64,000 nucleotides of DNA from Haliclystus octoradiatus. Its lineage: Eukaryota > Cnidaria > Staurozoa > Stauromedusae > Haliclystidae. The position numbers and the translations under genes were made by a program. Positions within the stretch are counted from its first letter, which is position 1. The number at the start of each line of letters is the position of its first letter. Below are positions 1 to 64,000 of this stretch, piece by piece. A model generated the notes under the pieces. That model made no database searches, had not been told where the DNA came from, and saw only the letters and a list, made by a program, of their open reading frames with translations. The stretch is from assembly GCA_916610825.1 (NCBI GenBank), contig OU744454.1:13470336-13534335 (forward strand). The letters are read 5' to 3'.

Positions 1-52
1 AGTATAAATATAGTGCATATAATAAATCATGAATAAATATAGTGTATATAAA

Positions 53-185
53 ATTGATCTGCAGTGTCGCGGTTGAGATCAACAAAGAGCGTTTAAAATC
101 ATTGCTCTCAGCGAAAAAAGCCCCTCATCTAGAAATAGAGGAGTGGTACTGCACGCCTTCGGTAGGGCAACACCGTCTACATTAC
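53..185 (+). repeat. SINE-A, 3' fragment
   Basis: The 3' two fifths of a tRNA-derived SINE seen in fuller form at 9306, 12832 and 33341. It runs from the ATTGATCTGCAGTGTCGCGG block through a hairpin-like GAGGAGTGG segment to the terminal CACCGTCTACATTAC. The tRNA head is missing, as expected for a truncated copy. Confidence 0.8.
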
Positions 186-940
186 ACATTTATATAATAA
201 TTATTAATGTAATGGTTATCAGCAACAGGCCAACATGACTGATCAATTGATAGTTCTCAATAAGACATCATAAATAACTGTTATGTTTGCCAATTGGATT
301 GATAAATTGAATTGCAAACAAATAAAAAATAAATCTAATCAAATCAAATCAAAATAATCAAAAATACATATATATATATAGGCAAATCACACAAGACATT
401 GATTATAAACCACTTCCTCATCTTGAACAATATTGCCTTTCCTTCCAATTTTCTCAACTCGATCACAAACACTCACTTGATAACTCTTATCATTTCTCTA
501 AATTCTTACTTTTTCTTTTAATTTTCTATTATTCTTAATTTGAAATCATTTAACCTGTAAATATATTTTGTGTCTCCCAATAAACAGGCATTGATACCTA
601 AGGGATGACCACAATCATTGTTTCATGTATGTAAATGTTAACCATGTATGTGCTTCTTAGGAGTGATGATTGAAATAAATATCTATCTATTTATCTATAT
701 CTATCTATATACATTCATCCAAATATTTACTTCAACATGTATTTCCATTATAAATATGTCCACGCACGAGAGTAGCGAGCGAATCATTTTGAAGATCCGT
801 ATTTTATTTTGAAGCTTCACAGGAACTATTGATTTATAAGGTTCGGTTTAACCAAGAATTTAATTATACCACATTTAATTATCAAGCATTTCATTCCTAG
901 GTTAAGCCCTTTTATCTCAAATTTTGTGTTATCTTTCCAG
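186..940. other. Upstream region of the peptide gene, no coding seen
   Basis: AT-rich sequence without a convincing reading frame. It holds a short TA run near 370 and a TCTA-type tetranucleotide run near 690-710. The last bases, a pyrimidine-rich tract ending CCAG at 940, look like a 3' splice site directly before the ATG at 941. No core promoter can be named with confidence. Confidence 0.5.
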
Positions 941-989
941 ATGAATAGCTTCACATTAATCTTAATTTTTGGAATGGTGTTTGCAGTAG
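941..989 (+). CDS. Peptide precursor exon 1 (signal peptide)
   Basis: Codes 16 residues plus one base, with a hydrophobic core LILIFGMVFAV. The donor is G|GTAAGC, phase 1. A strong acceptor-like tract (ATCTTTCCAG) abuts the ATG, so either a noncoding exon or a trans-spliced leader would join here. Confidence 0.72.
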
Positions 990-3557
990 GTAAGCATTTC
1001 AATTTTTTAAAGCATAATATATTTATCTTTTACATGGAACTTGCTCATATTTACAACTTGACCCGATAATCCGCTATTGACAACTCGGGCGTGGATGCAG
1101 GAATTTCATTACTTTTTCTTCTAAATTGTTTATATGAGTTGGTATAAGTGTCATTGGTAGCTGAAGTTGCTGAACTATAGGGTGAATTTGTTTATTAGAG
1201 ATTATGTACACGTGATTATTTCTGTTCTTTCGTGTAGCTTCTCAATGACCACGAGAGAATCGTGATTTCTTTGAAGATGAAGACCATGAAGGTATTTCAC
1301 AAAAGCTCATGTTTATTATTTAATTTAAGAGTTCATTCATGGGTTGTCATGCTTCATTGTAAAATTGCAGCACGAGTTATGTTTGGAGATACGAATGAAA
1401 CGTAATGAATAAACGAGCCACAGGCGAGTATTTCCTAGATTTGGCTGAGTGTCGGACATATAGAGGTGAATTTTCAGACTCCGAATCCGAAAAAAGTTCT
1501 TATAGTAGAGAATGTCCCCAAGTAAAGCTCCGAAAATGTAAGAAAAATAGCCTCTTACTACGACTCCGGCTCCAAAATATTTCAGACAAATTCCTGTAAA
1601 AAGTCCAAAAACTGATTATTTTATTAACCCAACATTAAGCAAACATATAGCAAAGTTCAACGACCAATCAAATTGCAGGGAATCATACCATAGTTTTAGA
1701 AGAATAGTATTTATAGATATATGTTTCGTATTGTATTGATGGAATGTATTACTGGAAATCGGAAATTTAACTATATAGATAGATGTTTATTTAATCATGT
1801 AAAACACTTAATAATAATAATTTACAAATCAACATAGTTGAAAGTTAATTAGTGATACATGATAAGGTTAATCCCTGAAGCAATCAATGCTTGTTTATTT
1901 GGGATACCTGTAAATATATAAAATGATTAAAGAAATGTTATATTTAGATAATTTGTAAAATTTAAAACAACATTTAAATAAGAATAGTAAACAATGAGAA
2001 TGATAATAATAGTAATATTAAATATGGCTAAAAGAACAGAATAAATTATAAAATGTTTCAAATACATTTGAAAATATAGAATAAACAATATTATAAAAGG
2101 TGTGAAATACATTTGAAAATATGATTTAATTACAGTAGATAATAGACTCAGTTGGAAAATCAACTATATGGTTAATGAGGAGGAAAGAATTATGAAGGGG
2201 ACTAGAAGAATGAGCAATGAAGAAATAAGATTTAATAGTCACAACAGATATTGCAGTTCTTGACAGTGCAGACATCATAGTTTCTTTCTAGAAACAATGT
2301 TTTTAACTTCCTAGAAAAACCATGAGTCGGTATATTGAAATCAAAATTGAACTTGGAACCATTCCAGAGGGAAAGAAACTGAAAACTGGGGTAATTTTGT
2401 AATGCAGATGTTTTTGCATGAGGTACGACAAAAATGTTTTGTTTTCGACGATGACGTGGCTGAAAGACAAAAACTTTTTTAAAATGTGATGGAACTTTAC
2501 CCTTGATGACATTATGCAGAAACAGTAAGACTTTAGAAGTGTAAAGATCCTCCAACTGAAGAATACCAAGGCGTTTACATAAAGGTTCTGCATGGGTACG
2601 AGGTCTCACCCCCATAATAATTCGAATGCATTTTTTGTGTAAGATGTTTAACTATACGATGTAAAAATATAAATATAAATACGATGTAAAACCTGTTCTC
2701 TCTTTCTTTTACTTGTGCTGACGATGATTTTGGAAGAAATCGAAAACGTTGCAAGACAACCGTTATTGTGTGTTTCATTTGTCCCTATACGTACTCAGTA
2801 TATGGTATAATGAAGCCGAAATTTGCCTTTGAAATGGCCGAGAAAATCGCGAATTGACAACATTTGATAATTATTGATTGACATATATACCTATAATAGG
2901 CTGATAATTCATATGCTAATTTGTAATTTAGACGATTTATTCCAGTACAATTAGGCAATTACTGCTTCTTGCATCACAATAATTAATTGTACAACGTATT
3001 GGAATATAGGTCTGGTATAATTATACTTTTAAATTCTAGTTAAAGATGAAGATGCCGAAGATTTTGAAGGGATTCTAGAAGAAGGTATAACGAAGAAAAT
3101 TTGGAATACAAAGCATCATATCATATGTCATACTGTATAGTTCTTCCTTTGTTGAGGGAAGGAAAAACTAGGGGTAGCGGTGCAGTTATATCATTACAAT
3201 TGTATTATATATATATCTCCATTAGATATCTCCATTATAGGCCTACAGACTATATAAACTGTATTAAGCTAGATTCCTCTGGCAGTGATACGAAGCGTGT
3301 AATATATATCCAGCATTAACATAATTGACTACATATAACATTCTTATAATATCAATGATACAATATCATAGAGTCATACCAGATGTCAAAAGGGTTATAT
3401 ACATGATTATATACAGTGTATATGTTGGCATAAATTACAATTCCATTTTTACTTTACATCTGTAGTTCAATCTGATCCTAAACCATGGTCTGGTAGAAGA
3501 CGTCGAAGATGGACTTTTTGCATACATCCACCATGCAATTATGTAATCGGAAAGTGA
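941..3557 (+). CDS. Secreted precursor of a CX4C cyclic peptide (three exons)
   Basis: Join 941-989, 3040-3084, 3466-3557; 186 nt, 61 residues plus TGA. Seen directly: residues 1-16 are a signal peptide (MNSFTLILIFGMVFAV); residues 17-31 form an acidic spacer rich in Asp and Glu; a short linker follows; residues 42-46 are five arginines; the C-terminus is WTFCIHPPCNYVIGK. Both introns are GT-AG and phase 1. Known biology: proprotein convertases cut after basic runs, and a Gly before a C-terminal basic residue is used for amidation. Inference: the product is a 13-residue peptide with one Cys-Cys ring and an amidated Ile. The ring size matches oxytocin/vasopressin and urotensin II peptides, but the core residues do not, and no neurophysin follows. 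A cationic antimicrobial peptide with an acidic pro-piece is the alternative. I do not recognise the family. Confidence 0.72.
1256..1291 (+). other. Possible extra acidic exon of the peptide gene, doubtful
   Basis: Within intron 1, the segment ends at a GT donor in phase 1 and could code ENRDFFEDEDHE, much like the real acidic exon at 3040. The good acceptor at 1237 would bring an in-frame TGA at 1246-1248, so only the weaker AG at 1254-1255 works. It may be an alternative exon or a decayed exon duplicate. Confidence 0.3.
1470..1650. repeat. Dispersed repeat, copy 1 of 2
   Basis: Shares patches with 4235-4430: the words GACTCCGAATCCGAAA, AAGTTCT and TTCCTGTAAAAAGTCC, followed by ATTATTTTATTAACCCAACAT, occur in the same order. 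It lies in intron 1 of the peptide gene. The short frame across it looks incidental. Confidence 0.45.
2228..2660 (-). mobile_element. 3' end of a non-LTR retrotransposon (LINE) reverse transcriptase
   Basis: On the minus strand an open frame reads LHKKCIRIIMGVRPRTH, then LGILQLEDLYTSKVLLFLHN, a variable stretch and SFQFLSLWNGSKF, ending in a Cys-rich tail (VKNCNICCDY). This order is typical of the C-terminal end of non-LTR reverse transcriptases: a GxxxRxH block, the LxLxDLY helix, an FxHN/YKxxxGxxP block and a final LWN motif. The catalytic YADD region is absent, so this is a 5'-truncated fossil. It sits antisense inside intron 1 of the peptide gene. The family is recognised by pattern only. 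Confidence 0.7.
2675..2825. repeat. Dispersed repeat flanking the LINE fragment, copy 1
   Basis: The block CGATGTAAAACCTGTTCTCT ... TTACTTGT(GC)TGA(C)GATGATTT ... GTTGCA ... GTGTGTTTCATTTGT ... TACTCAGT ... TAATGAAG recurs at 10575-10705 in the same order. It is probably part of the LINE's neighbouring sequence or of another old element. Confidence 0.5.
3040..3084 (+). CDS. Peptide precursor exon 2 (acidic spacer)
   Basis: 45 nt, phase 1 on both sides, so it can be skipped or duplicated without changing the frame. Codes VKDEDAEDFEGILEE, with nine acidic residues out of fifteen. Acceptor AAATTCTAG, donor GTATAA. Confidence 0.7.
3466..3557 (+). CDS. Peptide precursor exon 3 (basic cleavage site and CX4C peptide)
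   Basis: Acceptor TTTACATCTGTAG. Codes VQSDPKPWSG, five arginines, then WTFCIHPPCNYVIGK and TGA. The two cysteines are separated by Ile-His-Pro-Pro. The terminal Gly-Lys fits C-terminal amidation after trimming of Lys. Confidence 0.75.
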
Positions 3558-3652
3558 TCAAATGACAGGGGTCTTCGTACTCGCGTACTTGGTTGGATGA
3601 TATCTTTTGCTATACTAATTCTTAGTGTTTTATTGTATCACATCTCTTATAT

Positions 3653-3658
3653 AATAAA
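3653..3658 (+). terminator. Polyadenylation signal AATAAA of the peptide gene
   Basis: The first canonical AATAAA after the stop codon at 3557, giving a 3'UTR of roughly 110-130 nt. The sequence shows the hexamer only; the cleavage site is not visible. Confidence 0.5.
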
Positions 3659-4136
3659 ACATTCCAGTTGTATACTGATTCGGAATTGCCAGTTTTTTCT
3701 TGTCAGAGAAAGTCCCGGGAAATGGAAGGGTTTCCCTCCCAAAAAATAGACCGATGTGAGATGCCAAGAAAGTTCTGAAGTGAAGAAAAACAGCGCAAAA
3801 TAACATCCTATAGTAGACTTCTGTATGACGCATCTTCTGTTTCCATTCCATCTCATTTACTCTTCATTGTTCCAGTCATGTAATTTCTAAATAGAAGAAT
3901 ATAATTGTGCTTAAGTATTATCATAGTTTATATAGTGAGACTGCACAAAAACAATCAAGAAAAACGAATACATGTATCTCATTAACAACCAACGCGACAG
4001 CAACAGTACGTGAGAATAGTGTTGACCGTTCAGAGCTTTGCACGGTTTATTTGAAATGTAAACAAAAAACGGTAAAAATAACCTATCCCTTTGAAGTCGG
4101 CCGGGTTTCCTAACCATCCTACTATATAAACTATTG

Positions 4137-4215
4137 TTATTGAGCTGGAAAATATGAAGTGAAATTCCCACTTATCAGCAACCTGGCTTACTATGGAAAT
4201 CATTGCCAATTTTGA
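4137..4215 (+). repeat. MITE-C fragment
   Basis: Carries the internal words of MITE-C (37035-37223): AAGTGAAATTCCCACTTATC, GCAACCTGG and GGAAATCATTGCCAATTTTGACTTG. The terminal CAGTGTAACC blocks are lost. Confidence 0.5.
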
Positions 4216-4737: not shown

Positions 4738-4815
4738 TACAATGGTAGCTTAGTGGCAGAGTGTCCGCACTATGTGTGCGGGAGACCGTGGTTCGATTCC
4801 TCGTCGGTGCACACA
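4738..4815 (+). repeat. SINE-C tRNA-like head, copy 1
   Basis: Has a D-arm/A-box TAGCTTAGTGGCAGAGT, a CCGCA-CTATGTG-TGCGG anticodon-like hairpin and a T-arm/B-box GGTTCGATTCC. The two acceptor-stem halves do not pair, so it is a tRNA-derived repeat rather than a tRNA gene. A second copy at 37763-37840 shares the same sequence through GTCGGTGCACACATGTT. Confidence 0.65.

Positions 4816-7035: not shown

Positions 7036-64000
<56,965 letters not shown>

Follow-up and report, generated by a model that had tools for sequence, protein, structure and literature searches.

We have found, in the stalked jellyfish Haliclystus octoradiatus (Staurozoa), a gene for what is probably a small cationic host-defence (antimicrobial) peptide that is secreted; the same genome contains at least 46 loci of its family, this one included. 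The gene lies on chromosome 9 (contig C11, 16.71 Mb), within the 64,000-nucleotide stretch of DNA analysed here, hereafter the window. The find is larger than first described, as it comprises a whole peptide family in which the window gene is a ringed outlier, with one arginine run, a net charge of +6 and a ring size absent from the other two-cysteine members. This arginine- and tryptophan-rich family is apparently unreported. Searches of the open-licence literature retrieved neither an earlier report of the family nor the motif CIHPPC, and the cited part of a medusozoan defence review names no staurozoan peptide; a survey counts three predicted staurozoan antibacterial peptides, which are not named in the part cited here (PMC11820242). 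The family peptides are candidates for synthesis, ranging from linear Arg/Trp blocks to ringed forms.

Gene model and its closest relative

The window gene has the three exons of the original prediction, all joined in phase 1, with their splice dinucleotides and stop present in the sequence (Table 1). The joined exons give a precursor of 61 residues, the continuous frame of which is MNSFTLILIFGMVFAVVKDEDAEDFEGILEEVQSDPKPWSGRRRRRWTFCIHPPCNYVIGK. Taken alone, this gene model would be a guess, because the second donor is weak (AAG/GTATAA) and the hydrophobic leader is short, with a signal peptide of 16 residues. Comparison with its relatives makes the predicted model firm. The signal peptide and acidic spacer, which had also been predicted, are supported by a paralogue on contig C6 (5.879 Mb) in which all three exons recur with unchanged phase. 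Exon 1 of this paralogue is MNTLTLISIFGMVFALAI, with 75% DNA identity to the window over positions 912-1004, and the counterpart of exon 2 is VEDQDDDDEGQEFEDLLDE. Compared by blastn at E up to 0.01, window bases 1-4200 and the C6 locus (9.8 kb) shared four pieces, one for each exon and a short one beyond the gene at 4157-4189, and within intron 1 only the first bases matched. Over 58 aligned codons the dN/dS of the pair is 0.185/0.702, or about 0.26, with a bootstrap 95% range of 0.11-0.56 and dN equal to or above dS in 0 of 400 resamples; the two genes are under purifying selection.

Table 1. Features of the predicted antimicrobial peptide gene, in window positions
Feature	Position	Strand	Remark
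AG acceptor abutting ATG (CTTTCCAG/ATG)	933..940	+	Read from sequence
Exon 1, signal peptide MNSFTLILIFGMVFAV	941..989	+	Phase-1 end; donor GTAAGC
Intron 1, 2,050 bases	990..3039	+	
Exon 2, acidic pro-region VKDEDAEDFEGILEE	3040..3084	+	Phase 1 at both ends; TTCTAG before, GTATAA after
Intron 2, 381 bases	3085..3465	+	
Exon 3, VQSDPKPWSGRRRRRWTFCIHPPCNYVIGK and stop	3466..3557	+	CTGTAG before; TGA at 3555-3557; related last exons at 45 other loci
Conserved family block DPKPWSGRRRRR	3474..3509	+	
Predicted mature peptide KPWSGRRRRRWTFCIHPPCNYVI-amide, 23 residues	3480..3548	+	Both ends inferred
CX4C ring	3519-3536	+	
Gly-Lys amidation signal	3549-3554	+	
AATAAA polyadenylation signal, about 95 bases past the stop	3653..3658	+	Sequence only

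The layout in which an AG acceptor directly precedes the ATG is repeated at the first-exon candidates of five relatives (L016, L017, L018, L019 and L041) and is not present at L020 or at the three genes near 18.5 Mb on C8 (L022-L024). Judging from its position, the acceptor may belong to an intron in the 5' untranslated region or, in Staurozoa, to a spliced-leader trans-splice site.

Other features of the window were recorded alongside the gene. A 139-codon frame on the minus strand inside intron 1 (2232-2651) has, on visual inspection, a likeness to the C terminus of a LINE reverse transcriptase, and had no match in Pfam. Positions 12475-62991 of the plus strand contain many open frames rich in CPxGxYC and CxxCxxGxxC repeats; they have the appearance of exons of a single giant protein, cysteine-rich, secreted or on the surface, and of the ephrin-receptor-like GCC2/GCC3 type, and Pfam returned no match for the two frames tested. 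Two tRNA-like genes are located at 4739-4812 (His, anticodon atg), which may be a tRNA-derived repeat, and at 37769-37840 (Arg tct). Among the arrays in the window are (TAT)n, perfect over about 245 copies, at 51503-52236, and an array with a 22-base unit at 42573-43606. On the mitochondrial contig of the species (18,316 bases), cox1 lies on the strand opposite to most other genes, two tRNAs were found, and a near-palindromic stretch occurs close to one end.

An arginine-rich family of at least 46 loci

The H. octoradiatus assembly (33 contigs, 261.86 Mb) was searched by tblastn using the 61-residue precursor and its relatives, and by a degenerate DNA pattern for DPKPW...RRRR. The pattern had 63 overlapping matches in the genome, compared with 0 for a reversed-pattern control, and a second DNA pattern had 50 matches compared with 0 for its control. 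Forty-seven rows were gathered, from which C11:14459945 (NPLHNFPPRRRSPVCE) was dropped as a chance match before counting. The resulting 46 loci with a related last exon, on contigs C2, C4, C6, C8, C10 and C11, are a lower bound, as search counts of this kind are, and recent duplication may account for part of them, several pairs being identical. Clusters were found at 5.49-5.83 Mb and 18.54-18.59 Mb on C8, at 14.46-14.56 Mb on C11 and at 33.9-34.2 Mb on C4.

The sequence DPKPW is exact in 37 of the 46 loci and is present in a looser form in 42, and an Arg/Lys run of at least four residues occurs in 45. Gly-Lys(n) ends were counted at 34 loci, GKK ends at 30. In 32/46 there is more than one separate run of at least three arginines, whereas the window member has one run. 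From the D to the end, the median net charge is +12 (46 loci), and the arginine content of some members is extreme, for example RRRRRVTRRRRRWWRRRRRYGKK. Cysteines are less common: nine loci have two or more, the out-of-frame copy included, and the window member alone (1/46) has a two-cysteine CX4C ring. A CX5C ring occurs in the C6 member and in five C8 members, and a C10 member at 6.44 Mb has four cysteines, the last two with CX4C spacing; this member retrieves only the window gene, and weakly (E 0.016). Two further C10 loci (L066 and L039, at 13.258 and 13.270 Mb) have two basic segments with an acidic spacer between them, like a two-peptide precursor. One copy on the minus strand of C11 (L064, 14537100) goes out of frame in a G-run preceding the Arg block; given this copy and the 12 loci that have no Gly-Lys tail, some copies may be dead.

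No meaningful match to the family was found in Pfam, NCBIfam or PDB, and no Pfam or NCBIfam model passed its cut-off. Matches to DUF3311, REV, DUF4094 and RNase E were below the cut-offs of these models and, together with a match to capping protein (E 0.035), were taken as effects of composition.

Upstream exons were sought at 28 of the 46 loci, many of them with only 1.5 kb of upstream sequence. Acidic phase-1 exon candidates were present at 19 of the 28 and hydrophobic signal-exon candidates at nine, these being mechanical calls made without a random control, under a donor rule strict enough to miss the window's own exon 2, which a separate exon scan found. Full sets of exon candidates were obtained, likewise mechanically, for L016, L017, L019 and L022-L024, and near-identical upstream exons recur among relatives, such as AYRRDDREHEEDVEDADDDPDNL in L017 and AYRDDREHEEDFEDVEDGPDNL in L019. 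The C8 genes L022 and L024 are 78-92% identical in their four exons, compared with 58-63% in introns and flanks, and their dN/dS is 0.082/0.317 (101 codons, with the last codon left out). L022 and L023 are recent duplicates with exons no more alike than introns, and this pair therefore says nothing on selection. The family members are genes, not repeats.

Predicted product and competing readings

If the gene is expressed, exon 1 would bring the precursor into the secretory route, and the acidic exon 2 would offset the charge of the arginine-rich part until release. For the neuropeptide precursors of cnidarians, the residues described as sites of N-terminal processing are G, N, D, E and S (PMC6909153, cited from part of its text). 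By this rule the cut would lie within the acidic SDP sequence or beside it, before KPW, and would give a peptide starting at about KPW; the start of the 23-mer was set by analogy with arminin 1a and with cnidarian acidic cut sites. The terminal lysine would then be trimmed and the glycine converted to an amide. Cu2_monoox_C, a domain common to the amidating enzyme and related enzymes, has 23 matches to exons in the genome. The product, approximately KPWSGRRRRRWTFCIHPPCNYVI-amide, would bind negatively charged microbial membranes with its Arg/Trp-rich head, and its tail would be closed by a disulfide.

The pentaarginine had been read as a convertase cleavage site, which is unlikely. Arginine runs recur along the peptide at 32 of the 46 loci, which makes it more likely that RRRRR belongs to the active peptide than that it marks a cut site; it would form the cationic head of the 23-residue amide. 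In members such as DPKPWFYRRRRRVTRRRRRWWRRRRRYGKK, cuts at every arginine run would leave only VT, WW and YG.

The original prediction favoured a new cyclic peptide hormone, and named, as a finding that would refute it, relatives in which the spacer is kept and the CX4C peptide is not. This is the pattern found: acidic-exon candidates lie upstream of 19 of the 28 loci scanned, the DPKPW-type block is present in 42/46 and the Arg/Lys run in 45/46, while the two-cysteine CX4C ring is present in 1/46. What the family conserves is the signal, the acidic spacer and DPKPW-RRRRR. The gene also belongs to a large family, clustered in part and diverse in its C-terminal ends, which is unlike a peptide hormone; a hormone role for the window gene is improbable. 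The broader idea of a secreted-peptide precursor stands, given the acidic spacer, the amidation-type Gly-Lys end and the possible small disulfide ring. A cationic antimicrobial peptide, originally the second option, fits best with the Arg-rich family, its net charge and its Gly-Lys ends. In antimicrobial peptide families it is a known pattern that the leader and acidic part are conserved while the basic end varies, and the window peptide has the features of the cationic class, being net positive and Trp/Arg-rich, with secretion judged from the hydrophobic first exon.

Some probability, though a small one, attaches to a different product of the window gene. A convertase cut at RRRRR would free a 13-residue cyclic WTFCIHPPCNYVI-amide with a signalling function, the gene having left the antimicrobial family for a new role. 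The single Arg run of the window member would suit such a release. The window and C6 members share WTFC...PC after their single Arg runs, have low net charges (+6 and +5, respectively), and each sits apart from the clusters found; in the genome search for further relatives of the ringed members, only these two retrieved each other. Scyphozoans and cubozoans do have cyclic amidated neuropeptides (PMC6909153). The ring, however, changes from CX4C to CX5C in the C6 relative, which ends in HYSY; tail and amide are not conserved between the two genes, the alignment of the last ten residues being uncertain, and the lack of a Gly-Lys end in C6 counts against a conserved amidated ring. The Arg run is also common to relatives in which a simple cut site is impossible. 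In the part of the survey cited, cyclic peptides of the scyphozoan and cubozoan type are reported as absent from Staurozoa; the survey script required at least three similar copies and was blind to a one-copy precursor, and the window precursor has one copy (PMC6909153).

It is more doubtful still that the window gene is a family copy that is decaying or seldom expressed and lacks a function of its own. The C6 relative has lost the tail, another copy in the family is out of frame, and many antimicrobial peptide paralogues of Hydra are described as lacking expression (PMC10945409). The window gene nevertheless retains a full open frame, splice sites and AATAAA, and its dN/dS of 0.26, with dN at or above dS in none of the 400 resamples, argues against decay, although the same value would result from selection acting on the C6 branch or from selection that preceded decay.

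Least probable, and by a long way from the antimicrobial reading, is that the secreted Arg-rich peptide serves outside defence, for example by binding polyanions in the nematocyst capsule or in mucus. The extreme arginine content would suit this, but it fits poorly with gene clusters with varied C-terminal regions, tryptophan content and Gly-Lys ends, all usual for antimicrobial peptides. Clustering of this kind is described for the antimicrobial peptide families of Hydra (PMC10945409).

Comparison with arminins and other known peptides

Oxytocin/vasopressin and urotensin II peptides have a six-residue disulfide ring (CX4C). The window gene differs from them in its ring and tail, in having relatives without a ring and in having no neurophysin; as originally predicted, none follows, for the stop comes directly after Gly-Lys and no Pfam match was found. 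Membership of either group was rejected because the CX4C ring is unconserved, the two-cysteine form occurring in 1/46 loci and the C6 relative having CX5C. A cnidarian neuropeptide precursor, with several copies and GR/GKR-type sites, was rejected as well, since the window gene has one copy. The cyclic FRamide peptides of Scyphozoa and Cubozoa (CTSPMCWFRPamide and CXGQMCWFRamide) resemble the window peptide in their CX4C ring and C-terminal amide, but they have another sequence, occur in several copies per precursor and, in the part of the survey cited, are those reported absent from Staurozoa (PMC6909153). The arminin-like AMP1-AMP4 of Trichoplax have, as here, a signal peptide, an acidic N-terminal part, a basic C-terminal part and a C-terminal Gly for amidation; compared by description, they are about 150-250 residues long, versus 61-102 for the four Haliclystus precursors assembled (PMC12013895).

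A profile was built from 18 family peptides without cysteine. It scored its own members at 37.6-72.8 bits, arminin at 17.1 bits and four other antimicrobial peptides at -0.5 to 8.1 bits. Indolicidin is a Trp/Arg-rich vertebrate peptide with a high tryptophan and basic content, like the family. Its score was 8.1 bits, and no relation is suggested (sequence from PMC12011183).

The arminin layout, namely a signal peptide, an acidic pro-part, a basic C-terminal peptide and a Gly for amidation, is found in the window gene and its relatives. Hydra arminins likewise have an acidic pro-region and a basic C-terminal part (PMC12013895), and they are multigene and clustered, like the Haliclystus family (PMC10945409). 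The mature peptide of arminin 1a (KPWRFRRAIRRVRWRKVAPYIPFVVKTVGKK) starts with KPW and ends with GKK, as in the family (PMC12011183), although it differs from the window peptide in having neither a long Arg run nor a cysteine. The 31-residue mature sequence of arminin 1a had no match in the Haliclystus genome, in a search run without a positive control. Shuffled sequences reached the arminin score of 17.1 bits in 6 of 3000 cases when fully shuffled, in 123 of 3000 when GKK was kept, and in 981 of 3000 when both KPW and GKK were kept; the last figure indicates that the arminin likeness consists of two short ends plus composition. As the genome search came back empty and KPW and GKK account for the profile score, we do not claim homology to Hydra arminin, and convergence would be the safer reading of the likeness.

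We consider it unlikely that the Haliclystus family and the Hydra arminins derive from one medusozoan gene with an acidic pro-region and a KPW...Arg...GKK peptide, the window gene being a branch that grew a disulfide ring. In the part of the source cited, the arminin and periculin genes of Hydra are described as lacking homologues beyond that genus, Hydractinia and Clytia included, and are taken as a case of de novo gene birth (PMC10945409). Common descent, if true, would make the arminins much older and would overturn the view that they are confined to Hydra. At least 46 staurozoan loci with the arminin layout and KPW and GKK ends offer a direct test of common descent versus convergence.
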